DNA from: Candidatus Electronema sp.
Lineage (GTDB): Bacteria > Desulfobacterota > Desulfobulbia > Desulfobulbales > Desulfobulbaceae
DNA: 64,000 nt
NCBI GenBank assembly: GCA_026645415.1
Contig: JAPEVH010000022.1
Coordinates: 1 to 64,000 of the forward strand
Direction of reading: 5' to 3'
Shown here: piece by piece, positions 8,024-48,234 of the stretch
Layout of the letters: each line of letters begins with the position of its first letter
Numbering within the stretch: position 1 is the first letter of the stretch
Notes under the pieces: model-generated
Told to the model about the DNA's origin: nothing
What the model saw: only the letters and a program-made list of their open reading frames with translations
Databases searched by the model: none
Made by a program: the position numbers and the translations under genes

Positions 8024-8971
8024 ATGCAAACAGAGCTAACGAAAAGCATGGATGTTTTTCCGGTAAACAGCTTCATTGATTGGCTAGAAATTGAACGAGG
8101 TTACTCAGCAAATACAGTGGAAAGCTATAGCAGGGATGTGGAGGATTTTCTTCGTAGTCTTGGCCGGAAAACAGATCTTTCTGAGGTTAACGCTCTGCAT
8201 GTGCAGCAATATCTCGCTTCGCTCTATCTGAGCAACTCGGCCTCGTCCGTGGCAAGGAAGATGTCTTCTTTACGAGCCTTTTTTCGGCACTGTCTCAGGC
8301 TGGGCCTACTTAGTACAGATCCGCTAGTAGGTTTAGCTGGGCCAAAATTACCCAAATATATTCCAATCTATCTGACCGTCGATGAGGTCTTTAGCCTGTT
8401 GGAGGAGCCGAAAAAGCAAGACAATCTGTTTCAACGGGATCGAGCAATAATGGAACTGATTTACTCTACAGGGATGCGAGTTTCTGAAGCAGCAGCAAGC
8501 AATCTAGCAGATATGGATTTTGAGGCGAGAATGATCAGAATTAGGGGCAAAGGTGACAAGGAGCGAATGGCTCCTTTTGGCAGGACCGCAGCGGAAGTCC
8601 TCCTGCAATGGCTACCTCTACGCAGCCAGCTCACTGCCGCCCGAATTACACGAGGAGATAAACCAGAACAAGCAGCACTCTTTTTGAATAGTCGAGGGAC
8701 TCGCCTAACTGCCCGCAGCATAGAACGGATGGTCGCAGCCTACGGACAACGAGCTGGGATTAGGGTGCAGGTCACACCCCATGCCCTACGTCATTCTTTT
8801 GCCACGCATCTGGTAGAAATGGGTATGGATCTACGTATGGTACAGGAGCTACTTGGTCATGCAAGCCTTTCTACCACCCAGAAATATACGCATCTTAATT
8901 TAGAACATCTAAGTCGAGTGTATGATAAGGCCCATCCTAAAGCGACTGCGCAAGGAAAAAAAGCTACTTAG
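8024..8971 (+). CDS. Tyrosine recombinase of the XerC/XerD type
   Basis: 315 residues, the usual Xer length. The N-terminal SAM-like core-binding domain (FIDWLEIERGYSANTVESYS) is followed by the catalytic domain. The six catalytic positions are present: Arg in STGMRVSEAA, Lys in RGKGDKER, His-x-x-Arg in PHALRHSFATHL, His in LLGHASLSTTQ, and Tyr in QKYTHLN. This is a chromosome-dimer resolution type rather than a phage integrase by length and layout. XerC and XerD cannot be told apart here. It converges with ctpA, overlapping it by 8 bases, and lies just after a palindrome-rich region. Confidence 0.92.
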   Translation: MQTELTKSMDVFPVNSFIDWLEIERGYSANTVESYSRDVEDFLRSLGRKTDLSEVNALHVQQYLASLYLSNSASSVARKMSSLRAFFRHCLRLGLLSTDPLVGLAGPKLPKYIPIYLTVDEVFSLLEEPKKQDNLFQRDRAIMELIYSTGMRVSEAAASNLADMDFEARMIRIRGKGDKERMAPFGRTAAEVLLQWLPLRSQLTAARITRGDKPEQAALFLNSRGTRLTARSIERMVAAYGQRAGIRVQVTPHALRHSFATHLVEMGMDLRMVQELLGHASLSTTQKYTHLNLEHLSRVYDKAHPKATAQGKKAT

Positions 8972-10217
8972 TAGAGATATGCTCTAAAATAAACAAAGCA
9001 GCACGGAGCTGATTGTCAGCAGCGAGGAGCTGTTCTTTCAGACTGGCATCTTTTTTTCCTTGTTCTTTATTTTCAAGATGGTGCAGCAGATCTTTCTCGC
9101 GGATGCTGTTCTGTTCCTCGTCGCCTTTTTCCTCTAACGGTACAACAAGATCTGGGGTGATACCTGTCTCTTGAATTGATCTCCCACTAGGAGTGCAGTA
9201 GCGAGCTGTTGTCAAGCGCAGTCCAGCTCCATCTGGCAGAGGAACTACAGTTTGGACAGAGCCTTTGCCAAAGGTTTTTGTCCCAAGGATCAGTGCTCGC
9301 TTGTGATCTTGCAGCGCGCCAGCGACAATTTCTGCTGCGCTGGCTGAACCAGCATTCACCAAGACTATTACGGAAAAATTGTATTTCTTCGTTCGAGGAT
9401 TCGCCTTAAAAAGCATATCATGCTCTTTGTCGCGACCTTTTGTTGAAACTAATACGCCTTGTTTGATAAATAAATCAGCTAATCTCACAGCCTGATCGAG
9501 TAAACCACCTGGATTGTTACGAAGATCTAAGATCAAACCCTTCAGCGGTTTTTCTTTTGCTGCCTTACCAAGAGCCTCTTTGAAATCGCGCGCCGTGGCA
9601 GATTGAAAACTGCTAATCTGTACATGCAGCAGACCAGAGCCAAGCTCAGTAGCAGTAACCGAATGCTGAGGAATAAGGCTGCGCACCAAGACAATGTCCA
9701 GTGTCTTGCCGTCACGCCCCAAAGAAAGCGTTACCTTGTCGCCGACCTTACCCCGGAGCTGTCGGATTGCCTCATTCAGGGTCATGTCTTGGGTTGGCAA
9801 ACCGTTGATGCCAAGAATTCTATCGCCGGCTTTCACCCCTTGAGCAAAGGCTGGGGTGCCGACAATAGCTGAAACTACAGTTAAAACACCATCCCGTACC
9901 GTTACTTCTATCCCTACTCCGCTGAAACTGCCGCTCGTATCTTCTTGCAGCTCCTTGAATTCTTGAGGTGTAAGGTAGGCTGAATGGGGATCCAAAGTGT
10001 TAAGCATTCCATTGACCGCCCCAATAAGCAACTCACTGCTACTGACTTTATCAACATAGTGCTTTTGCACCAAATCTAAAATATTAGCAAATGTCTCAAG
10101 ATTACTATATATTTCTGCATCAGAAGTCTGTTTGTTCTCTTTGGCAGATAGCGAACTAACAGATAATGCAGCAATAAAGGCAGTAAAAAAAATGACACGC
10201 AGCAGTAGAGATTTCAT
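8964..10217 (-). CDS. ctpA: C-terminal processing protease (S41 family) with PDZ domain
   Basis: 417 residues with a signal peptide (MKSLLLRVIFFTAFIAALSV) that places it in the periplasm. A PDZ domain (SGVGIEV, KAGDRILGINGLP) precedes the S41 catalytic part. The nucleophile Ser is in NAGSASAAEIVAGAL and the general-base Lys in GTKTFGKGSVQTV. Such proteases trim or degrade periplasmic proteins, often regulating peptidoglycan hydrolases. It is the last gene after ftsE-ftsX-envC, with 98 bases in between, so control of the EnvC-activated hydrolases is a reasonable inference. Confidence 0.93.
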   Translation of the reverse strand: MKSLLLRVIFFTAFIAALSVSSLSAKENKQTSDAEIYSNLETFANILDLVQKHYVDKVSSSELLIGAVNGMLNTLDPHSAYLTPQEFKELQEDTSGSFSGVGIEVTVRDGVLTVVSAIVGTPAFAQGVKAGDRILGINGLPTQDMTLNEAIRQLRGKVGDKVTLSLGRDGKTLDIVLVRSLIPQHSVTATELGSGLLHVQISSFQSATARDFKEALGKAAKEKPLKGLILDLRNNPGGLLDQAVRLADLFIKQGVLVSTKGRDKEHDMLFKANPRTKKYNFSVIVLVNAGSASAAEIVAGALQDHKRALILGTKTFGKGSVQTVVPLPDGAGLRLTTARYCTPSGRSIQETGITPDLVVPLEEKGDEEQNSIREKDLLHHLENKEQGKKDASLKEQLLAADNQLRAALFILEHISTK

Positions 10218-10315
10218 AGATATTCCGGGATGAAATTTTTCACTGTTCTGACAGCCTCTTTTTTCTTATACCGCAAAGCGGGCTGCTGAAGAACAAAAAA
10301 AAGCATTCCGGGTAA

Positions 10316-11458
10316 TCAGTCTGCTTTAAGCCACTGAAGAGGGTCTTGCGGCTCTTCTCCCTGGCGAATTTCAAAATACAGGCCTGGCTCGTAGAGCGTA
10401 GCAAGATCACCACTAACTCCAATTTGCTGATTACGCTGGACAACATCTCCTTCTCGAACCAATACTGTATCGAGCCGAGAAGTAACTGTGAACCAGTTTT
10501 GTCCATGATCGATGATCACTGCATTGCCATAGCTGCGCCGCCAACCTGCGAAGACGACTCGCCCCTTCTCAACTGCCCGAACTTTAGCACCTTTATCAAC
10601 CGCAATGTGGATACCTTTGACTGTCTCTCCTTTGTGTAAACCCGTTTTCAGCACTTCACCGAAATGCAGTGTCACTTTTCCTTCCGCAGGGAAAGGAAGT
10701 TTACCTTTGAAAGGCTGTAATCCTTGGCCAGGATTCCGCTTTCTTTCCTTGATTTTGGCCAACGTGTGTTTCATCTCGGCCTCAGCTTGACGCATTTCCT
10801 CAACTGCCAAGCGGTACAGTCCTTGCTGGGCCTTGATTCTGGTCAAGAGGTCTTCTCGTTGCTGGCGCAATTTTTTAAGAGGTTTCTGCTGTTCCTCGGC
10901 TTGGCGTACCAGTTCCTCTTGCAGCGATTCTTCCAATTCATGCGCGGTCTTCGCCTGTTCTAAAACGGCCAAACTCTTTCGATAGCGAGCAATAACCAGC
11001 CGATCATAGACAGACAAACTTCGGAAAGAATCTGTCATCAGCATCAGTTCTGGCAAGGTTTGGCTGGAAAAGGTCACATTGAGCACTCCCAGCCTTCCCA
11101 TCATATAGAAAGCGCGTAGGCGGTTGAGCATGTGCTGTTTGGCCAGATCTCGTGCCTGCATTGTCTGGTTAAGCGTTTCTTTGGTTCGGGCCAAGATCTG
11201 CTGCTGCCGCTGTAGCTGTTTTTGAAGTACAAGAATTTTTTCCTGCTGCTGCTCTACGTTGCTGCTGACTTGATCTAGCTCATCCAAAACCGTTAGCTCT
11301 TGCTCACCGCTTTGGCGAAGCTGATCTTCTTGGAGGGCAATCTCTTCCTGCAACCTGCCAATATTGATCTTGATCTCTCCTTCGTTTGCGCCAAGGCAAA
11401 AGAAAGGCCAGAGCAGAGCAGCGAGCAAAACAGCAACAGGCAGTTTTTTCGGCTTCAT
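10316..11458 (-). CDS. envC: EnvC-like murein hydrolase activator (degenerate M23/LytM)
   Basis: About 380 residues: a signal peptide (MKPKKLPVAVLLAALLWPFF), a long coiled coil of roughly 200 residues rich in Gln, Leu, Arg and Glu, and a C-terminal LytM domain (HFGEVLKTGLHKGETVKGIH). The zinc-binding HxH pair of active M23 enzymes is altered: the region reads GLYFEIRQGEEP where HFEIR is expected. EnvC proteins are catalytically inactive LytM factors that activate amidases at the septum under FtsEX control, and ftsX lies directly upstream. The ATG at 11458 is preferred over a TTG at 11464 that overlaps the ftsX stop. Confidence 0.9.
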   Translation of the reverse strand: MKPKKLPVAVLLAALLWPFFCLGANEGEIKINIGRLQEEIALQEDQLRQSGEQELTVLDELDQVSSNVEQQQEKILVLQKQLQRQQQILARTKETLNQTMQARDLAKQHMLNRLRAFYMMGRLGVLNVTFSSQTLPELMLMTDSFRSLSVYDRLVIARYRKSLAVLEQAKTAHELEESLQEELVRQAEEQQKPLKKLRQQREDLLTRIKAQQGLYRLAVEEMRQAEAEMKHTLAKIKERKRNPGQGLQPFKGKLPFPAEGKVTLHFGEVLKTGLHKGETVKGIHIAVDKGAKVRAVEKGRVVFAGWRRSYGNAVIIDHGQNWFTVTSRLDTVLVREGDVVQRNQQIGVSGDLATLYEPGLYFEIRQGEEPQDPLQWLKAD

Positions 11459-11460
11459 GC

Positions 11461-12348
11461 TCAAATACTGAGAATTTTACGGATGGAGACAAAGCTGCCG
11501 CCCGCGCAAAGCAACGTAGAAAGAACAATGATAGCAAGTAACGTCGAGGCACTGAAAAAACTAAAAGCAAACATGCTCTGGGCAGCCTGAGCAGCAAAAT
11601 TGCCTTGAATCCACCGAAAGAGCAAATACAATGCGCTCAAGCCCGCTGTTGAGCCAAACGCACCAAGGAGCGCGCCTTCCAGAAAAAAGGGCACCCGGAT
11701 ATAACTGTTCGATGCACCAACCAAGCGCAGCAACTCCAGCTCTCTTTTGCGGGAAAATACGGTTAAGCGGATGGAATGACCGATCATAAAAGTGGTTGTC
11801 AGAATAAGCAGTGTACCAGAGAGCAGTACCACCACCCGGAGGAGCTGCACAAAGGAGTAGAAACGCTCTACCCATTCCCTGCCGTACTGGACCTTCAGCA
11901 CTCCAGGCAGCTTTGCCAAATAGTCGGAAAAATCTTTAAGTTGCGCCAAACTATGCAGGCTTCGACGCGGATAAATTTCGATTGAGGAGGGAAGAAAATC
12001 TTTGGGAACATCTTTCAAAACATCGTCACTTTCTTTAAGCTGGGCCTTGAAGCGGTCATAGGCTTCCAGCTTAGAAACAAAAGTAATCCGCTCAACTTCA
12101 AACTTTTCGATTTTACGGCGATATTCCTGCTGAAGAGCTTGGTCTGGCTGTTCATCAAGATAGACGATTAAACGGAGGTCGTTGTCTAGCCGATTGCCAA
12201 GCTGCAAGGTATTGACATAAACTAAATAAAAAAAGGTAAAAATCAGCACGGACAAGGTAATAGTTATCAAAGAGAGGAGCTGGCTACGCCACGTCTCAGT
12301 AATGCTGCGCCACGTCTGGCTGAATACGGCGAGAAGAAAATTCATCAT
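11461..12348 (-). CDS. ftsX: Cell division protein FtsX
   Basis: 295 residues. It has one N-terminal TM helix, a periplasmic domain of about 120 residues (LIVYLDEQPDQALQ onward) and three C-terminal TM helices in an MacB/FtsX-type permease domain (LLILTTTFMIGHSIRL, RKRELELLRLVGASNSYIR). FtsX couples ATP hydrolysis by FtsE to activation of peptidoglycan hydrolases, and partners with the EnvC encoded next. The start overlaps the ftsE stop (ATGA), indicating translational coupling. Confidence 0.93.
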   Translation of the reverse strand: MMNFLLAVFSQTWRSITETWRSQLLSLITITLSVLIFTFFYLVYVNTLQLGNRLDNDLRLIVYLDEQPDQALQQEYRRKIEKFEVERITFVSKLEAYDRFKAQLKESDDVLKDVPKDFLPSSIEIYPRRSLHSLAQLKDFSDYLAKLPGVLKVQYGREWVERFYSFVQLLRVVVLLSGTLLILTTTFMIGHSIRLTVFSRKRELELLRLVGASNSYIRVPFFLEGALLGAFGSTAGLSALYLLFRWIQGNFAAQAAQSMFAFSFFSASTLLAIIVLSTLLCAGGSFVSIRKILSI

Positions 12349-13067
12349 GCCCGTGTCTCCGCTTTCCTCCCTGTTCCTACAGGTTTCTGGATTGCCAGCC
12401 GTCCGTTTTCAATTTTGATGATCTTACTGCCCGGATAGTCATAAATAGAATGATCATGGGTGGCAACGAGCAAAGTCGCGCCCTGCTCATTGTAGCGATG
12501 AAAAAGCTGCATGACCAGTTCTGTGGTTTCAGCATCCAGATTACCGGTTGGCTCATCTGCTAAAATAAGTTCTGGTTCATTGGCTGCGGCTCTGGCAATC
12601 GCCACTCTTTGCTGCTCGCCTCTGGACAAACAACCTGCTGGCGCGTCCATCTTGTCTAATAAATGTAGTTCTGTAAGTAGCTTTTCTGTCTGGCTGCGGA
12701 TGAACTGTCTGCTCCGGTAAGAAACCTCCATAGAATAGGCTATGTTCTGGGCGACTGTTTTATCTGGGAGCAGTTTAAAATCTTGATACGCCACGCCAAT
12801 GCGGCGACGCAAATTTTGTAACTCCGTATCAGTGGCGCGACTCAGATCTTGACCAGCAATTTCAATATAACCTTTGTCTGGGATATCAATAGCACAGAGC
12901 AGCCGCAACAGCGTGGTTTTACCAGCTCCGCTCTGACCAGTGAGAAAAATCATCTCTCCTTGCCGGATGCGCAGGGAAACATCGTCCAAAGCATGGGTAT
13001 CTGGCGGAAAGGTCTTGCTGACTCTTGCCAGATCGATCATAGTCGGTCGTTTTTCTTCGTTGCTCAT
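12345..13067 (-). CDS. ftsE: Cell division ATP-binding protein FtsE
   Basis: 240 residues, a compact ABC ATPase. Walker A is [14 protein letters not shown]. The Q-loop is in [20 protein letters not shown], with the FKLL signature common in FtsE. The ABC signature is [14 protein letters not shown], Walker B is [12 protein letters not shown], and the H-loop is ATHDHSI. It acts at the inner face of the membrane with FtsX. It overlaps both neighbours by four bases (ATGA), so cooC, ftsE and ftsX are probably one transcript. Confidence 0.95.
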
Positions 13068-13825
13068 TGTCCGAAAATACGGTCAAAGATGGCAAAAGCC
13101 TGCTGAATGATCTTGGAATCATCGGGAAGCTGCAAATAGGACGCACCACTCAGCTCCTGTCCCACTAGCTCCTCGCTGGCTGGAATAATACCTGCCAACT
13201 GCAGCTTGCTTTCTGCCACGGCTGCATCAATTTTTTCTTGGAGGGCAGAAGGGATAGGGTCAGGAGCGCGGTTGACAATCAGATACTGCTCATGAATATC
13301 AAGCTGGAGCGGGCCAGTCAACTCAGCAATCCGCCGGGCTGTAAGAATGCCTCGCGCCGAGGGATCAGAAACGATAAGCAGATAATCAATTTTGCGCAGA
13401 TTGAGGCGGCTAAGATGCTCCATACCTGCCTCATTATCAACAATAATATATTTATAGTTGTCTGCCAGACGATCCATAGTCATGGCTAAATACTGATTGG
13501 CGGCGCAGTAGCAGCCTGGGCCGTCAGGCTGGCCCATGACCATCAGGTCAAAACCCTGCTCTTCGATCAGTGCTTGATGGATTTTCATTTCCATATACTG
13601 ATCACGGGTCATACCGGGTGGCAGATCGCCTTTCAGCTCTTTGCGGATTGCGCCGAGAGTGCTATGAACTTCTAAGTTGAGCAGCTCGTTAAGGTTGGCA
13701 TTGGCATCAGCATCTACAGCAAGAGCTGGAGTCTTGCCATGTACGGTCAGGTATTTAAGCAGGAGGGCAGCAGTAGTGGTCTTGCCAGTTCCGCCCTTAC
13801 CTGCAAGAGCTATTACTTGAGTCAT
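13064..13825 (-). CDS. cooC: CooC-type nickel-insertion ATPase (MinD/ParA fold)
   Basis: 253 residues of the SIMIBI class. It starts with a deviant Walker A (AGKGGTGKTTTAALLL) and has the CooC hallmark Cys-x-Cys in GPGCYCAANQYLAM near residue 110. A switch-like YIIVDNEAGMEHLSR follows. CooC inserts nickel into carbon monoxide dehydrogenase, which fits an organism with a CODH/acetyl-CoA synthase pathway, but no CODH gene is in the window. It heads the ftsE-ftsX-envC group and overlaps ftsE by four bases, an unexpected partnership for this family. Confidence 0.8.
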   Translation of the reverse strand: MTQVIALAGKGGTGKTTTAALLLKYLTVHGKTPALAVDADANANLNELLNLEVHSTLGAIRKELKGDLPPGMTRDQYMEMKIHQALIEEQGFDLMVMGQPDGPGCYCAANQYLAMTMDRLADNYKYIIVDNEAGMEHLSRLNLRKIDYLLIVSDPSARGILTARRIAELTGPLQLDIHEQYLIVNRAPDPIPSALQEKIDAAVAESKLQLAGIIPASEELVGQELSGASYLQLPDDSKIIQQAFAIFDRIFGQ

Positions 13826-13920: not shown

Positions 13921-14397
13921 TCACTCTGCATTACGTACGGTCACCACCTCAGCCTTGCGCAAAACAACATTTTCTTTTGTATCAATGTAGCCTTTTTTAA
14001 GCACCGTAAGAATTTCTTCGTCTTTTCTCTCTGGCATCCGCTTGGTTTCAACAATGCGGCACTGCTCTGCCTTTGCTCGGCGATCAGGAAATTCGAGCAC
14101 TTCAATATGACGAGAGGTCAGCAGCCGAAGGAGTTTACGCTGCACAGCACGCATATTGTTCAAGAGGCTAAGGCTGGTCTTCTCAAGTGGCTGCTGCCTG
14201 CGACGAACATTGTTTTCTACGCTGTCAAACGCATCTAATACCTCAAATAATTCTGTCAGCAAATCCTGCTCGCGGCAACGGCAGTTTTCTTCTTGCTCGC
14301 GTTGACTTCGTTTCAGTTCAGCGATTTCCCGCTGAAAGGTAACAAATTTTTCCCGTAAAAGGTCACTGGGATCGCTAGGCTTCATTCTTTTCATCAT
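13921..14397 (-). CDS. Divergent GrpE-like nucleotide exchange factor
   Basis: 158 residues. The N-terminal half is a helical coiled coil (FVTFQREIAELKRSQREQEE) as in GrpE. The C-terminal half has the GrpE beta-domain pattern: RIVETKRMPERKDEEILTVL followed by KKGYIDTKENVVLRKAEVV, matching the GrpE ending of a KGY element, a VLR element and a final Val-rich strand. It is shorter and more divergent than canonical GrpE (about 190 residues). As last gene of the cassette with the zinc-ribbon Hsp70 it probably serves that chaperone. A canonical grpE is expected elsewhere in the genome. Confidence 0.75.
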   Translation of the reverse strand: MMKRMKPSDPSDLLREKFVTFQREIAELKRSQREQEENCRCREQDLLTELFEVLDAFDSVENNVRRRQQPLEKTSLSLLNNMRAVQRKLLRLLTSRHIEVLEFPDRRAKAEQCRIVETKRMPERKDEEILTVLKKGYIDTKENVVLRKAEVVTVRNAE

Positions 14398-14399
14398 GA

Positions 14400-14660
14400 T
14401 TAAACAAAAATTTCAAGCAACTTGAGATCATCTGAGCCAAGCGGCTCTGTTGCTAACCTAGAAGAAGTCAGTAACGGCTCCAAATCAACAAAGCAGATAA
14501 AATCGAGCAGAGGTCGCAGTTCTGGGTTCATAAGCTGTTGTCGAGCTTCGGCGATCTCGCGTGCAGAATATTTTTTTTCTCGTAAGGACTTGGTGGCAGC
14601 AGCAATTATTTCCTTTGCTGTCGCCTCTGCCGAGAGTCCAAGTATCTTGTATGGATTCAT
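14400..14660 (-). CDS. Degenerate J-domain-like small protein, no HPD
   Basis: 86 residues. It begins NPYKILGLSAEATAKEIIAA, the classic start of helix I and II of a J domain, and continues with a helix III/IV-like region (REIAEARQQLMNPELRPLLD). Where HPD should be, the sequence reads KKYSA. HPD is needed for J proteins to stimulate Hsp70 ATPase, so this may bind an Hsp70 without activating it. The ATG overlaps the stop of the upstream repeat-protein gene (ATGA), and the GrpE-like gene begins 2 bases after its stop. The fold assignment is by eye. Confidence 0.65.
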   Translation of the reverse strand: MNPYKILGLSAEATAKEIIAAATKSLREKKYSAREIAEARQQLMNPELRPLLDFICFVDLEPLLTSSRLATEPLGSDDLKLLEIFV

Positions 14661-16468
14661 GCCATTTCTTGTTTTAGACGCAGATCATCAAGACTTCGCT
14701 GAATCTCACCAATCATCTGATGGCTCGTATCGACCCGAGTGACACTGCGGAGCAGATCTTCCAAAATCAAGATTGCAGCCTCCGTATCAGGATAATCGCC
14801 CTGTTCAAGCTGGACAGCTACTTGCTGTGCTGCTCCAAAAAATTGTTCAACAACCTGCTCATAGCGGCTGGCCGCAGCAATGCGAGCCGCCTTAGAGAGC
14901 CAGCCTTGATCTATAGCTTCATGCAGTTCAGCTAATTCAAAGGCAATACTCACTTCTTCCAACATCATCCGGGCAAACTCATCGTCAGGATTGAGAGCAA
15001 CCGCCTTTTGCATTGCTGCTGCCAAAAGCTGTGGCCGTGCCTTCTTGCTGTTATGCAGGCGCACTGCTAGTTTGGTCAGAGCGATACATAAAGCACGGGC
15101 AATCTCCTCTGGCGGGGAGCTTTTCGGCAGCAAGCTGAGGATACTCAGACAAGCTGCGAGACAAGGCGTTTCTTGACCATTTTCCTGCGCCAATACAGTC
15201 AATAGCTGCTTTTCTAGCTCCACGGACCAAACTGCTTGCGGTTCACCGCCAACTAGAATTTCCTCTGCCTCTCGGCACCGCCCATGCCGAAGAGCCTCAA
15301 GCCCACAGGCAGTTCTGACTTGTGCTGCACCATAGGCGAGAAAAGGGTCATCACGCTGTTCTTCCAAACTAACTAACTCTTTCAGAGCCGTCTCATACAT
15401 CGTGCTGCGTACTAAGAGGAGAGCTTCTGCCACAGCGTAAGCAGCCCCAGTCTCAATCCATTCCTTACTATTGGAAAAATCATCTCGACGCTCTCTGATC
15501 AAGGTACAAAGCTGATCGCTTAGGCCCGTGCGCAGAGCTAGAGTGGGCGTACAAATTGGCAGAGCCTGCTCCTGTACGGCAGGTAATTGAGCCAGCCTGT
15601 TCAGGAGAGCAAGATTTTCCTCCCATTCCTGTATGAGCTGCGGGCCTTCATGCAGGCGAGTGGAATGCCTACGGAGCAAATTTTCGCCAAAATCGAGCAA
15701 CGCCTGCCGCTGTTCTCCGGCCTCTTGGGAAATTTTTGGATGAAATAAGGCAGAAAGCCAGCTATCAATAAATTGCCGCAAGAGAGGCGCAGAAACCGCT
15801 GTTCTGTCGCCAAGCAAAAACTGACAAGTGGCCTTAGCTTGAATTTCTAATACAGTAGCATAGCGTAAATCATTTTGATCAGCCATTGCCATAAGTTCTT
15901 CAACTTGATCTTCTTGCCAGAGCCGAGCCAATCGTAGATGATTACAATGAGCCAACAGCTCTTTGCCACTCGGTAACGCATCTAAAGAGAATTCTTTTAC
16001 GAGCTGCCGAACTTCCTCTTCCCGCTCTATAGGCTGCTCGTCTAAGTGATGATAGAGTTCCTGTAACAGCAACTGGCAGACGCGCTCTTTCTGGGCAAGA
16101 AAGTCTGGATGAGCTGAATCTATCCGTTGCCAGAATCGCAGACTATCGGCAAAACGACCCACTTTGGCCGCAGCAAAGCCAGCATGATAGCAATCTATTG
16201 GAGAAAAACAATCTGCTACAGTATATGCCTCTACGGCCTCCTGCCACTGCCCAGCTCGTAGCCGACAGTAGGCTAATCGTCGAAGCCGCTTGCTATCAGG
16301 ACGGACCGTCTGTAACTGCTCTAACAATCCGGCTGCACGAAGATGATCATTAGTAGCCTCAGCCTGCTCTGCTGCCTCTAACAAGCGTTGGCAATCCGCC
16401 TCAACTTGGGCAGCTCGTCTTTTTTTGAAGAGCCATTGTAGGCTGGCAAAGCAGGTATGTTGCCTCAT
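14657..16468 (-). CDS. Large helical repeat (TPR-like) protein of the Hsp70 cassette
   Basis: About 603 residues, almost entirely alpha-helical by composition. The N-terminal third has TPR-like units (AAGLLEQLQTVRPDSKRLRR, then LAYCRLRAGQWQEAVEAYTV and HAGFAAAKVGRFADSLRFWQ). Further irregular repeats follow to the end. No signal peptide or TM segment is evident, so it is probably cytoplasmic. TPR proteins often dock Hsp70 or clients. The ATG at 16468 follows the LysM-gene stop by 5 bases; a TTG at 16477 overlapping that stop is the alternative. I do not recognise an orthologue with known function. Confidence 0.7.
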   Translation of the reverse strand: MRQHTCFASLQWLFKKRRAAQVEADCQRLLEAAEQAEATNDHLRAAGLLEQLQTVRPDSKRLRRLAYCRLRAGQWQEAVEAYTVADCFSPIDCYHAGFAAAKVGRFADSLRFWQRIDSAHPDFLAQKERVCQLLLQELYHHLDEQPIEREEEVRQLVKEFSLDALPSGKELLAHCNHLRLARLWQEDQVEELMAMADQNDLRYATVLEIQAKATCQFLLGDRTAVSAPLLRQFIDSWLSALFHPKISQEAGEQRQALLDFGENLLRRHSTRLHEGPQLIQEWEENLALLNRLAQLPAVQEQALPICTPTLALRTGLSDQLCTLIRERRDDFSNSKEWIETGAAYAVAEALLLVRSTMYETALKELVSLEEQRDDPFLAYGAAQVRTACGLEALRHGRCREAEEILVGGEPQAVWSVELEKQLLTVLAQENGQETPCLAACLSILSLLPKSSPPEEIARALCIALTKLAVRLHNSKKARPQLLAAAMQKAVALNPDDEFARMMLEEVSIAFELAELHEAIDQGWLSKAARIAAASRYEQVVEQFFGAAQQVAVQLEQGDYPDTEAAILILEDLLRSVTRVDTSHQMIGEIQRSLDDLRLKQEMA

Positions 16469-16473
16469 GCCAT

Positions 16474-17628
16474 TCAACGGAGAATAATATTAACCGTATT
16501 GCCAGGAGCCACCTTTTGGTCTCCAGGATAAAACACCCTGCCTGAATATCGAGGCGGGAAAAAACGAGCGTAGAGAGATTGCCACGTTTCTCCGGGTTGA
16601 ACTTTGTGTTTCCAGAGAAGTAGGCCATCTCGCTGCTCAGTTTTACGCCGATATTGGGCTGCTGCCTGCCTGCGATCCGCAAAAAGCCGGACTTTACTAC
16701 TACCCTTAACACTGCCTTTAAATATCTGTGGGTTCAACTCCATAATTACAGGGTAGTATTTACCCTCACCATAAAAACGTTCCGCTAGTTCCCAAACTGT
16801 TTCACCGTCCTGAGCTTGATAGAAAAAGAGAGCAGAAGAAGTTGCGCGAGTAGCTTGTCTTGAAAGTATTGGGCTAGATTCTCGCAACCCAGAGACCAAT
16901 TTTATCCATCGCTTCCGCGTAGCCTTGAGGACTGGCAAGGCCGTCGCTTGAGCAGCAACAGTCTCTGTAGCAGCGGATTGCGTCTCAGGTGTGGCTGCAA
17001 TTGCTTGCTTTGTCGCTGGCTCGGATAATTCTACAGGTTGATTTTTCTTCCCATTATCGCTTTTCTGTTCTGGGAGGTCAAAAATAACCTCTTGAGCCAC
17101 TTTTGCCTCGGAAAGAGTATCCTGCTGCGACGAGAGATCCGTGACAGAAATTGCTGCTTGCTCACCTTTTGGAGAAACAACAAGAGGCTGATTTTCAGAT
17201 TGTTTGTTTTCTTCAGATGCAGTCTTGGAAAGTTGAGATTTCTTTCCGGCTTGCCGATCATCCATAATACGAATTTGGGCATCAATATGAATCTTGCCGT
17301 CAGATTGATTGACTTCCGCATGAGAAACTATTTGCTGACTTGGTGCTGTTTCTGGTGCCGACAGAGTGACGACCTTATAATATAGCTCTGCAAAACTACT
17401 TTTCATATTCAGAGCGACGATAACAAGCAGTAAAAGGACAGTAGCCCCTGAGACCACGGCAAGCCAAGGAAAGCCTTGTTTTTTAGCAACAGGCTCAGAT
17501 GATGTCTTAGATGACAAGGCATCAAGAACCTGAAAACAGGTCAAATCAGAATCACATTGCGGACAATTAGCACAGTCTGGAGCCAAACCTTGCCGCCCGC
17601 AGACAGGACAGGAAGAGCTTTGGCTCAT
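16474..17628 (-). CDS. Zinc-ribbon membrane protein with C-terminal LysM-like domains
   Basis: 384 residues. Cysteines at about 7, 10, 19, 22 and 25 (CPVCGRQG, then CANCPQC) form a cytoplasmic zinc ribbon. One TM helix follows at about 53-72 (WLAVVSGATVLLLLVIVAL), then a low-complexity Gln/Ser/Glu linker of about 190 residues. At the C-terminus are two LysM-like regions (AQDGETVWELAERFYGEGKY and VQPGETWQSLYARFFPP). The topology suggests a link between a cytoplasmic chaperone and the cell wall. The start overlaps the Hsp70 stop (ATGA). Confidence 0.72.
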   Translation of the reverse strand: MSQSSSCPVCGRQGLAPDCANCPQCDSDLTCFQVLDALSSKTSSEPVAKKQGFPWLAVVSGATVLLLLVIVALNMKSSFAELYYKVVTLSAPETAPSQQIVSHAEVNQSDGKIHIDAQIRIMDDRQAGKKSQLSKTASEENKQSENQPLVVSPKGEQAAISVTDLSSQQDTLSEAKVAQEVIFDLPEQKSDNGKKNQPVELSEPATKQAIAATPETQSAATETVAAQATALPVLKATRKRWIKLVSGLRESSPILSRQATRATSSALFFYQAQDGETVWELAERFYGEGKYYPVIMELNPQIFKGSVKGSSKVRLFADRRQAAAQYRRKTEQRDGLLLWKHKVQPGETWQSLYARFFPPRYSGRVFYPGDQKVAPGNTVNIILR

Positions 17629-19940
17629 TTTTTGATATCTCGATAAATCTTTTGCGTACTACGGGCATGCTGATCCAAAACTTCTTCAACTTCTGGTAGT
17701 ACAGCCAGCACTTGTTCTGTAAAGGCGTTACTCTCAGTTTCAGCTACGGCCAGCATATCAGCAGCGACCCGCATGAACCGTTTTGCCTTGCTTGGATCAG
17801 TTTGATAGCAAATTTCGCAGGCATTTTCAATCTGGGTCAGAGCATGAACCAGTTCTAGTCTTGGGTCTTCAAGTACCTCGGCTAGTTCCTCCATTGCCTG
17901 TATGGTTTCCTCATAGGAACCGTCTTCGTCTGCTTGACGCAGGAGATCAATTTTTTTTTGCATCTGCGTTGCTAAATCTGCTTTGATCAGCTTGCCGTAG
18001 TCCTCTAGCATACTTTCTGCATAATAAATTCTCGTCAGAGGTGCTTCCTCTGCGCTAGCAATTTGCACGGCCTTGCTGATTTTTTCCTCGACCGAGCGAC
18101 GTAGTGCCTCATCAACTTGACCAGTTTCTGGATCAACTACCCGATGGATAGAGCGGATAATTGCTCTCGCCCGACTCAGCAGATCTGTTACTGTGTAGGT
18201 TGAATACCCTTGCTGATCAGCTTCGTTAATCGTTCGTTCCAAGGTGAGAAAAAGTTTTTCATCTGCTTTACCACGCGAGAGAGTGCCAGCCACCTTCACC
18301 TCTGGCTGGCCAACCAAAGCAGCCCGAACTGAAACTAAGTTGTTTTCGTCAATATCTAAAGTAACAGCAACTCGCGGTGGTTCATCGGTGTACTTTTCTT
18401 CAGCCTCTTGGCCATCCCGATCAATGCCAAGCCAAAGATCACCAATACTTTCTTCTCGCTCATTAACAATATTGAAAAATTTTATATGCACCAGTTCCTG
18501 CTCTGCATCTACGAGCTGAAAAATTTCAGTGCTAGAACAGGGCAAGGGACTGTTTTTCTCGACCATTAAAAAACGCCGGTCATTTTCCAGCCGAATGAAA
18601 TAATCATGCGCCGTTGCATGAACTATATCTACTAAACCTTGATTCGTGATATAGGCAGCTAAATCAAAACCACAGCTTGGACAGGCAGCATCGTTTTGTC
18701 CAGCTTCACCGCCGCAACCAGGGCATTCTTGGGTATCTGCTAAACGATGACTGAGAATGGCTGCGCCTTCTGCCACAGCCAGCATGGGGCGTTCGTGGAG
18801 CAAAACCTTTTCTTCACCAAACTCTTTTTGTAACGCCTTAATAAAAGATGGAATGCAGGAACTGCCACCTACTAAGAGCACCTGATCGATAAGGTCAGGC
18901 GTGAAATGCAGCTCGGCCAGCAGACGACGTAATAACTGAAGCACAGCCTCCCGCATCGGAGCCAGCAAAACATCTAGTTTCTCTTGCCGCAGTTCAACCT
19001 CAATATCTAGCGCGTCGCCGTCTTCATCTGTTAATAAACTAAGCACTTCAATATATACTTCTGTCTTCTCGCTCAACGTAATTTTGGCCTTTTCCACTGC
19101 GGTCTTCAACTCGGCCATAAAGCGATTTCGCTCTGTTTCATCTTGGCGCGCAAGGAGGGCGTAAATGCGGCTAATACCCTGTTCACCTCCGGCCTCTTGC
19201 AGGACATAATTAATGATCAGGCTATCAATATCTTCGCCGCCTAACCACATGTCACCGCCTTTCCCCATCTCGATGATTTGGCCGCCGCTGATGACAAGTA
19301 CAGAAAGATCAAGGGTGCCACCGCCAAAATCAAAGACCAGCAATGTCTTACCTTCATCACCAGAGACCTTATCCACGCCAAAAGAGATGGCCGCTGCTGT
19401 TGGTTCAGGCAAGAGACGGCTCACTTTCAATCCAGCTAGGGCAGCAGCAGTCCGCGTGGCATGTTTTTGCTTGTCGTTGAAATAGGCTGGCACAGTGATA
19501 ACTGCTGAGTCTACTTCATCACCCAGAGCTTGTTCTGCATCTACTTTAATTTTAAGCAAAATCTTGGCTGATATTTCCTCTGGAGTAAACTCCCGTCCGC
19601 CTGCTAGGATGGCTAAACTATTTTCTGAGCCGTGCGAATGTGCTGTTAAGTGATTGCGGAAACGTTGCCCGGCGATCAATTCCTGCACTTCTTTATCCTG
19701 AAAGCTCCGTCCGATTAGGCGTTTGACTGCGGTAATGGTATTCTCTGGCTCTTGCCGCAGCCACTCTAAGGCATGACGGCCCACAATAAACTCTGGTTTT
19801 CGCATCAATCGTTTACGCACCGTGACGCAAGACGGAGTGATGTATTCACCTTCGGCATTCCGCAGCACCTCAACGCTTACCTTTCTAATTGCGGCGGCAG
19901 AATTAGTGGTTCCTAGATCAATGCCTATTGATTTTTTCAT
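17625..19940 (-). CDS. Hsp70-family chaperone with inserted zinc ribbon
   Basis: 771 residues from MKKSIGIDLGTTNSAAAI, preceded by GGCAGGAT as ribosome site. The frame is open to 20081 but that would run into the preceding gene. The ATPase domain (1 to about 400) keeps phosphate loop 1 (IGIDLGTTNS), phosphate loop 2 (LLVFDFGGGTLDLS) and the adenosine motif (LLVGGSSCIPSF). Straight after it, at about 406-424, is a four-Cys ribbon (CPGCGG, CPSCGFDL). A beta-rich substrate-like domain and a long helical tail follow. The DnaK C-terminal EEVD-like end is absent. It is a paralogue distinct from housekeeping DnaK. Confidence 0.85.
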   Translation of the reverse strand: MKKSIGIDLGTTNSAAAIRKVSVEVLRNAEGEYITPSCVTVRKRLMRKPEFIVGRHALEWLRQEPENTITAVKRLIGRSFQDKEVQELIAGQRFRNHLTAHSHGSENSLAILAGGREFTPEEISAKILLKIKVDAEQALGDEVDSAVITVPAYFNDKQKHATRTAAALAGLKVSRLLPEPTAAAISFGVDKVSGDEGKTLLVFDFGGGTLDLSVLVISGGQIIEMGKGGDMWLGGEDIDSLIINYVLQEAGGEQGISRIYALLARQDETERNRFMAELKTAVEKAKITLSEKTEVYIEVLSLLTDEDGDALDIEVELRQEKLDVLLAPMREAVLQLLRRLLAELHFTPDLIDQVLLVGGSSCIPSFIKALQKEFGEEKVLLHERPMLAVAEGAAILSHRLADTQECPGCGGEAGQNDAACPSCGFDLAAYITNQGLVDIVHATAHDYFIRLENDRRFLMVEKNSPLPCSSTEIFQLVDAEQELVHIKFFNIVNEREESIGDLWLGIDRDGQEAEEKYTDEPPRVAVTLDIDENNLVSVRAALVGQPEVKVAGTLSRGKADEKLFLTLERTINEADQQGYSTYTVTDLLSRARAIIRSIHRVVDPETGQVDEALRRSVEEKISKAVQIASAEEAPLTRIYYAESMLEDYGKLIKADLATQMQKKIDLLRQADEDGSYEETIQAMEELAEVLEDPRLELVHALTQIENACEICYQTDPSKAKRFMRVAADMLAVAETESNAFTEQVLAVLPEVEEVLDQHARSTQKIYRDIKK

Positions 19941-19998
19941 ATCCTGCCTGCTGCGGCTGCGTTGCAAGCCCATCTCTTGCGTTGCAGCGGTATCCTTT

Positions 19999-21060
19999 TT
20001 AGGCAATGGGGAGGGTGAAGCTAAAAATGCTTCCGTTGCCAGTCTGCTTTTCTGCTTGCAGACGGCCTTGGTGGAGTTCAATAATTTTCTTAACCACCAG
20101 CAGACTGAGACTTTTTTCTCTGCTTCCAGTGGTAGAAGTTGGATTATTTGAAAAGGCTGCTAAGTCTTGATTGTTTAACTCTGGCCCTTGATCGGCAACA
20201 GCCACCTGCACTGAATCTCCCTCTGCTTGCACAGTCACAGTAATCATGGAGCCAGACGGAGTATGTTTGATCGCATTGCTCAAAAGTCTGTCCACAGCTT
20301 GACGAATACGCCTTGGATCACAACTGATTTGTGGCACTTCAGCTATCTGCTCTATCAGTTCTATTTTTTTATCTATAGCAGCTCGTTGCTGGGACGAAAT
20401 AGCTTCTTGAACGACTTGGTGCAGCGCGACCTGCTGCCGACTAATTTTAAAAGAACCTTCCCAAACAGCCGAAGCATCAAGAAGATCACTAATTAGGATC
20501 TGCATGGCTGAGGCAGTCTCATGGATGCCGTGCAGGTGATGATCCATATCTTGCCGGACATCAACAAAACTTTGATCAGTCAGCATCTCCGTCATCGTGA
20601 TAATATAACCGAGCGGATTGCGAAGATCATGAGCAGCGATACGAAGAAAATGATCTTTGAGCCGATCTAAATCCACGAGGCGGTCATGGGCCTCAACCAA
20701 GCGGCGACCTACGGCAATCCGGCTCTGTAGTTCGCCAATATGCACTGGTTTACTAAGAAAATCATGTGCCCCATGATCTAGGGCATGAATAATATCTTCT
20801 TTCTCATTTCTACCAGTGAGCAGGATTGTATAAATGAGTGGGCTATGTTCTTGAGCATTCAGTCTGGAGCAAAGTTCCACCCCATCCAAGCCAGGCATCA
20901 TCCAATCCACCACCGCAATTCGAGGTGGATTGGCTTCGCGTAGTCTCGCCAGAGCTTCAAGGCCGTCTGAAGCCTCCACAGTTTCATAGCCCCATTTAGC
21001 AGCGCAGTGCTGGAGAAATATTCTAGTTGATAGCTCGTCGTCAGCGATAAGCAGTTTCAT
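19999..21060 (-). CDS. Receiver-histidine kinase hybrid without sensor domain
   Basis: 353 residues, no TM or signal sequence. The receiver domain at 1-120 has the acidic pocket (LLIADDE), the phospho-Asp in VVDWMMPGLDGV, and the Lys in LSKPVHIGEL. A HisKA helix follows with the phospho-His in RIAAHDLRNPLGYI, then a HATPase domain with the N box (DRLLSNAIKHTPSGS) and G1 (VADQGPEL). The G2 box is degraded: SREKSLSLLVVKKIIELHQG instead of a GLGL-type loop, so ATP binding is doubtful. It lies 58 bases upstream of the Hsp70 gene on the same strand. Confidence 0.85.
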   Translation of the reverse strand: MKLLIADDELSTRIFLQHCAAKWGYETVEASDGLEALARLREANPPRIAVVDWMMPGLDGVELCSRLNAQEHSPLIYTILLTGRNEKEDIIHALDHGAHDFLSKPVHIGELQSRIAVGRRLVEAHDRLVDLDRLKDHFLRIAAHDLRNPLGYIITMTEMLTDQSFVDVRQDMDHHLHGIHETASAMQILISDLLDASAVWEGSFKISRQQVALHQVVQEAISSQQRAAIDKKIELIEQIAEVPQISCDPRRIRQAVDRLLSNAIKHTPSGSMITVTVQAEGDSVQVAVADQGPELNNQDLAAFSNNPTSTTGSREKSLSLLVVKKIIELHQGRLQAEKQTGNGSIFSFTLPIA

Positions 21061-46801: not shown

Positions 46802-46939
46802 TTAGTGATTTTTTTCTGTGTCTTCTTGATACGGATTGCCTGTAACGATACCGTCCTCTATATCTGGGAGTAGATCAATCAAGGTGCTTAGATCAGGGCT
46901 AATGACCGCTGTTTTTGAATACCGCCAGTTAAAAAGCAC
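46802..46939 (-). CDS. Possible small ORF overlapping the end of the J-domain gene
   Basis: A GTG-started frame of 45 codons reads from within the last codons of the J-domain gene: NWRYSKTAVISPDLSTLIDL, then LPDIEDGIVTGNPYQEDTEK. The acidic composition looks protein-like, but there is no ribosome site. It may be a remnant C-terminal extension of the J-domain protein reached by frameshift, or chance. Confidence 0.25.
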   Translation of the reverse strand: MLFNWRYSKTAVISPDLSTLIDLLPDIEDGIVTGNPYQEDTEKNH

Positions 46940-48074
46940 CTGTTGTAAAAATGCTATTCAAATCGACAAGCTCATCCTGCGGCTTGGGAATTTTATATGT
47001 TTTTAAAAAGGCTTTTAAAGCCTGATTGGATTGAAACTCTTGGATATCTTCTTTGATTCGTGCAATATCATCTTTAACATCTTCAATATCTTCATCAAGT
47101 TTTTTAAGGAGCTGATTCGGTGCCAAGGTGTAATAGAATGGCCAATGAGAATTTTGTTTTGCTTGATACTCAATAAGATTGATTTCCTCTTCCAGCTCCT
47201 TGAGTTGATTTTGCAAAATCTTGTTAAAATACTGCACCTTTTCTTCTGCTATGCTGCTTAAGTGAGCTTGATCAATATGCTCTAATTCCAATTGTAGTTC
47301 CAGCAGGCGCAATAAGTCCTTTTCTTTATATGCAATGTTAACTTGCTGCATGAGTTCATTTTTTCTTACTTTTTCTTCGCTATCAGATTCAAGGTCAGGA
47401 TGCAGTGCTGCCGCCAATTTTCGATACACCTCTTGAATGGATTTACTAATATTTTTTTCTTCCTGTGCCAATCGTGCCTCTTTTTCTAATTGTTTTGCTG
47501 TCTTTTTACGCTTGCGGCGTTTTTCTTCAGCCAAACGCTGCTGTTCTTTCTGCTCGGTTATTTTTTCATGCAAAGCAGCTTGCAATTTTTCTGGTGAACT
47601 GACATCAACATCATCATCAATTTTAACTCCTGTCATTGCTTCAAACATTGACTTCATTGCCATGCCAACCTGTTCATCTACATTCTGATCAAGACTGTCA
47701 AGGTCAACTTCGCTGTATTTACTGTACAACTCCTTCATCTCGTCCATGTCACAAGAAATCAGCTCCTCGGTAATCGAGCAGATAAGATGTTCTATTTTTC
47801 GCTTATCAGTTTTTGTGAACATTTTTTGTGAATAAGCAGCATCTAATAAGTATGCTAATTCTGCCCGTTGCTGATTGTATTGATCATACAATTCATCATA
47901 TTCCGTGAGAACACGTTGTCGGTAAAGAGGATATACTTCTTTCCAGCGTTGGAATAATTTTTTCTTTGCTTCAAGTTTTTTGATTAAGGAATTGAATCTT
48001 TTTTGACCCTTAGAGAGAACTTTCTTATCAGAAGTATTTGCGATACGGACAGCTTTGCAATCAGATGAACTCAT
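46929..48074 (-). CDS. J-domain protein with long coiled coils
   Basis: 381 residues from the ATG at 48074, preceded by AGGAGAAGACA. Most of the protein is charged and helical with predicted coiled coils (residues about 25-110 and 160-210). A partial J domain is central: KNISKSIQEVYRKLAAALHP carries the HPD motif at 225-227 and is followed by ELMQQVNIAYKEKDLLRLLE. Such proteins resemble the DnaJ-like coiled-coil proteins of gammaproteobacteria with unknown clients. It is not adjacent to an Hsp70 gene, but this window encodes a zinc-ribbon Hsp70 whose own J-like partner lacks HPD. Confidence 0.75.
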   Translation of the reverse strand: MSSSDCKAVRIANTSDKKVLSKGQKRFNSLIKKLEAKKKLFQRWKEVYPLYRQRVLTEYDELYDQYNQQRAELAYLLDAAYSQKMFTKTDKRKIEHLICSITEELISCDMDEMKELYSKYSEVDLDSLDQNVDEQVGMAMKSMFEAMTGVKIDDDVDVSSPEKLQAALHEKITEQKEQQRLAEEKRRKRKKTAKQLEKEARLAQEEKNISKSIQEVYRKLAAALHPDLESDSEEKVRKNELMQQVNIAYKEKDLLRLLELQLELEHIDQAHLSSIAEEKVQYFNKILQNQLKELEEEINLIEYQAKQNSHWPFYYTLAPNQLLKKLDEDIEDVKDDIARIKEDIQEFQSNQALKAFLKTYKIPKPQDELVDLNSIFTTGAF

Positions 48075-48234
48075 TGTCTTCTCCTGAGTATTGTTGGTTG
48101 ATCTTGTTTCCTGCTCAACTCGCCGCAGAGTTAAAACGCACGATTTCTTCCCAAGCGATTTCGCCACTGTCATTGCAGAAAGAATTGGCGAACCTGTTGA
48201 TCGTTTTGATTTTCATAACGTCAGAATAGATGGG

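Follow-up and report, generated by a model that had tools for sequence, protein, structure and literature searches.

A conserved five-gene operon of cable bacteria and other Desulfobacterota encodes an additional Hsp70 alongside a predicted single-pass LysM protein

Operon architecture and conservation of gene order

The window analyzed here, a stretch of 64,000 nucleotides, is part of a 2.7-Mb draft genome of the cable bacterium Candidatus Electronema, a genus that includes Candidatus Electronema aureum GS. An ORF check of this window confirmed six minus-strand ORFs, encoding a receiver–histidine kinase, an Hsp70 termed Hsp70b, a protein with a zinc ribbon, a transmembrane (TM) segment and LysM-like domains, a TPR-type repeat protein, a J-like protein and a second GrpE (GrpE2; Table 1). 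The spacing agreed with the original prediction made from the sequence, which had described five genes joined by 4-base overlaps or by gaps of 2–5 bases and a kinase gene upstream, its stop codon 58 bases from the Hsp70b start. This start, an ATG at 19940, is the same as in all homologues. For the TPR gene, an alternative in-frame TTG start would replace the gap with a 4-base overlap. Pfam matches for DnaJ, TPR and LysM are all weak in the window copy. Downstream of the operon on the same strand lies a cell-wall hydrolysis and division cluster (8964–13825) encoding a CooC/ParA-like ATPase, FtsE, FtsX, an M23 peptidase in an EnvC-like position and a PDZ/S41 C-terminal protease; this cluster was not seen adjoining the operon in other Electronema loci.

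Table 1. Genes and protein features of the Electronema operon, with positions in the window
Feature	Position	Strand	Basis or remark
Receiver domain and histidine kinase, 353 aa	19999..21060	-	Pfam Response_reg/HisKA/HATPase_c, strong
Hsp70b, 771 aa	17625..19940	-	Pfam HSP70, 3e-96
Hsp70b four-Cys zinc ribbon (C406, C409, C420, C423)	18660..18731	-	All Cys invariant in a 32-row alignment
Hsp70b conserved C-terminal tail, I-Y/H-K/R-D/G-I/L-x-K/R	17628..17657	-	In nearly all members
Zinc-ribbon/single-TM/tandem LysM-like protein, 384 aa	16474..17628	-	4-base overlap with Hsp70b
N-terminal zinc ribbon of the LysM protein (C7, C10, C22, C25), predicted cytoplasmic	17515..17616	-	Alignment
TM segment of the LysM protein, about residues 51–82	17383..17478	-	Hydropathy
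First LysM domain, predicted periplasmic	16681..16833	-	Domain search and alignment
Second, degenerate LysM-like domain, C-terminus	16477..16617	-	Read from sequence
TPR-type helical repeat protein, 603 aa	14657..16468	-	ATG start, 5-base gap after the LysM gene
J-like protein, 86 aa	14400..14660	-	4-base overlap with the TPR gene
GrpE2, second GrpE-type exchange factor, 158 aa	13921..14397	-	2-base gap after the J-like gene

Conservation of gene order in relatives had been proposed as a check of the prediction. The order Hsp70, zinc-ribbon/LysM, TPR, J-like and GrpE was found in Electronema and its nearest relatives, genus g4 and Electrothrix, and all 27 complete named loci from other genomes agreed in order and strand, which excludes a chance linkage. 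Genes flanking the operon vary between lineages. In the remaining Electronema loci (L047–L049) the receiver-kinase gene likewise precedes the operon, and it does not neighbor it in Electrothrix or g4; because it adjoins the operon only in Electronema, it was ruled out as a core member, and the six-gene unit originally described reduces to a conserved core of five genes.

In most incomplete loci the operon meets a contig end. Exceptions are L090, which is frameshifted and has no LysM match, and Electronema UBA5173, where the TPR, J-like and GrpE genes are grouped on a different contig. An incomplete operon in genomes G002, G004 and G021 was rejected since these three genes are present there on other contigs. 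At locus L086 from the Electrothrix aarhusensis MCF assembly (G108:C60), the Hsp70b frame is broken near residue 640 and the TPR frame is also split, probably through sequencing or assembly error. The operon in genus g4 (CSMAG_1653; L050:6591-9235) is divergent from the housekeeping grpE–dnaK pair. A D-Ala-D-Ala ligase-like gene, identified by eye from its sequence, adjoins the operon downstream in Electrothrix (L052–L055) and upstream in Electronema UBA5173 (L048), which hints that the ancestral neighborhood may have been linked to peptidoglycan. An anti-phage defence system was rejected, as PADLOC returned no match for the five core proteins.

Hsp70b and the products of the linked genes

Hsp70b comprises an actin-like ATPase domain, a zinc ribbon, an interdomain linker, an SBD-beta and an enlarged helical C-terminal part. 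Its actin-type ATPase with the DnaK catalytic residues (D8, K70, E171, D194, T199 and D201 are kept in the alignment, as is R167) and its SBD-beta place it in the Hsp70 superfamily. The AF2 model (pLDDT 83) matches DnaK and BiP structures, with moderate confidence only in the ribbon region. Scores fell below the cut-offs for the DnaK equivalog (TIGR02350, 310 bits versus 823) and for HscA (255 bits versus 709). Phylogenetic analysis recovered Hsp70b as a single clade comprising 31 sequences (support 94/95) with DnaK apart (100/97); E. coli HscA and HscC fell on the DnaK side, on long branches that leave their exact placement unsure.

Contig C42 of the same genome carries a standard dnaK (910 bits) preceded by grpE, and complete J domains with HPD occur in three more of the encoded proteins. 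Since the genome thus has housekeeping copies of dnaK and grpE as well as dnaJ genes with HPD, the operon represents an additional chaperone set, in line with the dedicated set that had been predicted. Besides a lack of conserved gene order, a grouping of the Hsp70 with DnaK or HscA together with a genome devoid of another dnaK would have spoken against that prediction; neither materialized, given the 27 loci, the separate clade and the dnaK on C42. Elsewhere in the window (46929–48173), a 414-aa coiled-coil-like protein contains an internal J-domain-like stretch with an HPD motif (LHPDLES) that scores below the Pfam cut-off.

By regular-expression search and by re-alignment with the ribbon removed, the Hsp70b ribbon was located after the final helix of the NBD and ahead of the linker. 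The re-alignment also revealed a degenerate linker, and an earlier reading that the linker was missing was dropped. The DnaK linker VLLLDVTPL corresponds to roughly G-V/L-L/V-D-I-V-H in the Hsp70b family, with L391 changed to V/L/I, L392 to L/V/F and D393 kept in 27/32 sequences. On DnaK, according to a 2021 review (PMC8215388), the HPD motif of the J domain docks through its Asp (D35) on R167 and Q378 and through its His (H33) on L391. Hsp70b retains R167 and P419 at this J-contact site, and all 32 sequences have Q378 replaced by L and N170 by P or S.

The HPD motif itself is absent from the J-like protein of the window and from every homologue, so that none qualifies as a canonical J domain. 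The AF2 model of the J-like protein (pLDDT 80) contains helices at residues 3–7, 15–28, 33–44, 49–57 and 61–68, with a shortened loop at the usual HPD position. J domains dominate its Foldseek matches (top probability 1.00, TM about 0.5, E-values all above 0.04), and Pfam DnaJ weakly matches 17 of the 29 homologues through helix I; a sequence-profile search against the PDB returned designed coiled coils only. The model and these matches point to a predicted J fold lacking HPD, of the Pam16 type. With HPD lost in the partner and Q378 and N170 replaced in Hsp70b, the J–Hsp70 contact is altered on both sides. GrpE2 is a clear GrpE family member (PF01025, 1e-11; 45 bits versus a gathering cut-off of 25.8), shorter than usual yet retaining the R-x-A-x-V beta-wing motif. 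The earlier description of a full chaperone set therefore holds by gene count but not for canonical J function, as the J-like protein has no HPD.

These data bear on a simpler explanation, in which Hsp70b is a duplicated general chaperone served in trans by ordinary DnaJ, with the remaining genes loosely linked to it as passengers. Such an origin would fit the retained R167 and P419, the degenerate linker in which D393 persists and the canonical DnaJs encoded in the genome. The tree, however, shows that Hsp70b is no recent DnaK duplicate, Q378 and N170 are lost in all members together with HPD in the linked J-like protein, and the five-gene linkage is strict across distant lineages, making this explanation very unlikely.

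The LysM protein is laid out as an N-terminal four-Cys ribbon followed by the TM segment, a variable spacer and LysM. Hydropathy analysis indicated one TM segment in 32/32 homologues, and LysM (PF01476) matched 28 of the 32 (best 8e-14), with the window copy below the cut-off; the family as a whole is a LysM family. Zn_ribbon_3 matched ten of the 32 homologues. The topology is inferred to place the ribbon on the cytoplasmic side and LysM on the periplasmic side, with a weak charge bias across the TM segment; the single-pass membrane protein with a cytoplasmic ribbon envisaged originally is thus supported as a prediction. All ten invariant alignment columns lie inside the ribbon. Column conservation averages 0.67 there, falls to 0.57 and 0.45 across the LysM-like domains and drops to 0.07 in the periplasmic spacer, and Desulfotignum copies keep the ribbon and TM segment with the LysM domains gone. 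Because some lineages have lost these domains, wall anchoring is not essential everywhere. Since the ribbon is the best-conserved part and Desulfotignum drops LysM, the core role of the protein, judged from these alignments, is probably that of a membrane-held cytoplasmic recruitment site, with wall attachment as an add-on.

For the repeat protein, TPR families matched up to 22 of 31 homologues. A combination of LysM, a single TM segment and TPR is known from FimV/HubP, in which periplasmic LysM, one TM segment and cytoplasmic TPR occur in one chain and LysM binds peptidoglycan (PMC12918733). With LysM-TM and TPR encoded by neighboring genes, the operon might analogously specify an envelope organizer in which these two proteins mark an envelope site and Hsp70b serves mainly as an ATP-switched assembly or positioning factor rather than in general folding. 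The combination is nevertheless split here between two proteins in an Hsp70-linked operon and does not qualify as FimV/HubP, and the orientation is reversed (ribbon, TM, LysM versus signal peptide, LysM, TM, cytoplasm in FimV). In addition, LysM is dispensable in Desulfotignum, and the retained GrpE and J fold fit a chaperone cycle. We therefore regard an organizer of this type as quite unlikely. The LysM region also resembles those of Kbp (YgaU) and TsaP, but the operon protein differs in its N-terminal, predicted-cytoplasmic zinc ribbon and TM segment, and no BON domain was found in it.

Both ribbons had been noted in the original reading of the sequence, and every Cys proved invariant in the two wide alignments. 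Two invariant four-Cys sites could also belong to an envelope-stress or metal/redox sensor, with zinc loss or oxidation at a ribbon, or a wall-sensing LysM, switching Hsp70b on or off. The redox-regulated zinc-ribbon protein Rv0991c (Ruc) of Mycobacterium, a partner of DnaKJE (PMC7448276), offers a precedent, and Electronema has a two-component gene upstream of the operon. We nonetheless assign this sensor function a low probability: the kinase is not kept with the operon beyond Electronema, hosts are mostly strict anaerobes, and zinc ribbons more commonly play a structural role.

Distribution across bacteria

A scan of 84,980 species, with one genome per species, identified 38 loci at 36–71% identity, nearly all in Desulfobacterota. 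Apart from cable bacteria, carriers are scattered among sulfate-reducing bacteria and include Desulfocapsa, Desulfatirhabdium, Desulfonema (D. magnum), Desulfamplus, Desulfotignum and strain NaphS2, and a system confined to cable bacteria was accordingly rejected. Single MAGs labelled Spirochaetales (L083), Kiritimatiellia (L090) and Pseudomonadota (L088) also have a copy, which may reflect transfer or mis-binning. For the Spirochaetales MAG, this follows from its branching inside Desulfobacterota in the tree.

Within the host order, Hsp70b was present in 16 of 258 genomes, comprising all eight Electrothrix genomes, four of five from Electronema and just four others. The fifth Electronema genome (69% complete) has the TPR, J-like and GrpE genes, and all 13 cable-bacterium genomes examined thus contain at least part of the system. 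In a phylum-wide spread of 395 genomes, Hsp70b occurred in two. By these counts, the system is universal among cable bacteria as far as tested, and elsewhere it occurs rarely and patchily. The association spans two related genera and does not prove that the system has a cable function.

Desulfotignum, Desulfatirhabdium, Desulfamplus and strain NaphS2 are unicellular. Because such relatives carry the system too, the specific role in filament assembly initially considered is not supported. The system may nevertheless have a cable-relevant client, given that all cable-bacterium genomes tested have it and few others of the order do.

A putative membrane-tethered Hsp70 machine and its relation to known systems

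We consider it moderately probable that the operon encodes a dedicated second Hsp70 machine tethered to the cell wall and the inner membrane, with an altered J-protein interface. In the model that we infer for the protein–protein contacts, zinc binding, the cycle and the clients, the LysM protein would reside in the inner membrane with its ribbon facing the cytoplasm and its LysM domains holding peptidoglycan. It would bring Hsp70b to the cytoplasmic face, probably by contacting the Hsp70b ribbon beside the NBD–SBD linker. Such docking between the two ribbons is plausible from their sequences; zinc ribbons are common recruitment modules, and their co-occurrence may not mean contact. The TPR protein would act as a scaffold or client adaptor, probably gripping the C-terminal tail of Hsp70b, a candidate TPR ligand comparable to the EEVD tails of eukaryotes. 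GrpE2 would carry out nucleotide exchange, and the HPD-less J-like protein would bind near the usual J-domain site to target or regulate Hsp70b, without providing a canonical ATPase trigger. The trigger might instead be the contact with the ribbon or adaptor, or else a housekeeping DnaJ. Clients would probably be membrane or envelope proteins emerging at the membrane.

Compared to DnaK–DnaJ–GrpE, the operon shares the Hsp70 ATPase and SBD folds, a GrpE homologue and a J fold but differs in the ribbon before the linker, the replaced Q378 and N170, the enlarged C-terminal helical part, the 86-aa HPD-less J-like protein, the membrane anchor and the TPR protein. E. coli offers another extra Hsp70, HscC, which has its own partners DjlB and DjlC and is presumed to work at the plasma membrane (PMC8215388). 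DjlB and DjlC are, by contrast, tail-anchored J proteins, HscC is described there as having no GrpE-binding features, and it sits on a different Hsp70 branch from Hsp70b in our tree; zinc-ribbon, LysM or TPR partners of HscC are not reported in the available part of this source.

Similar in layout is the mitochondrial import motor (mtHsp70, Tim44, Pam18/Pam16, Mge1 and Hep1/Zim17), which likewise combines a membrane-tethered Hsp70, a GrpE, a degenerate J-like protein and a zinc module. Pam16 is the degenerate J-like component, and the zinc-finger factor Hep1/Zim17 contacts the NBD/linker and can stimulate the ATPase (PMC3806816, PMC8347752). Unlike the motor, the operon has no Pam18-type J protein, and its zinc module is built into Hsp70b; neither a translocase gene nor homology to import-motor accessory proteins was seen in it. 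The likeness is one of design, by analogy, and does not imply membership.

A text search, with subscription literature mostly outside its coverage, found no paper joining Hsp70, LysM, GrpE and a zinc ribbon and nothing on DnaK in Electronema. The cable-bacterium papers examined did not discuss chaperones, one of them naming Hsp70 in its reference list only. The five-gene system is conserved and apparently undescribed.

Three bacterial Hsp70 types, DnaK, HscA and HscC, are distinguished in the 2021 review, which also states that J domains with a changed HPD motif failed to stimulate Hsp70 in all systems tested (PMC8215388). A conserved operon in which the J-like protein has no HPD and Hsp70b has altered contact residues therefore represents an unusual and testable rewired switch. 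A bolder and, in our estimate, unlikely reading is that of a fourth bacterial Hsp70 system type that cycles without an HPD J protein, the linker ribbon and pseudo-J replacing the trigger in a membrane- and wall-anchored motor whose layout converges with that of the import motor. If true, this would add to the known Hsp70s a fourth bacterial type, equipped with an anchor, a scaffold, a J-like subunit and an exchange factor of its own. The occurrence of the operon in 13/13 cable-bacterium genomes examined and its rarity elsewhere also mark it out as a possible contributor to the unusual envelope of cable bacteria.
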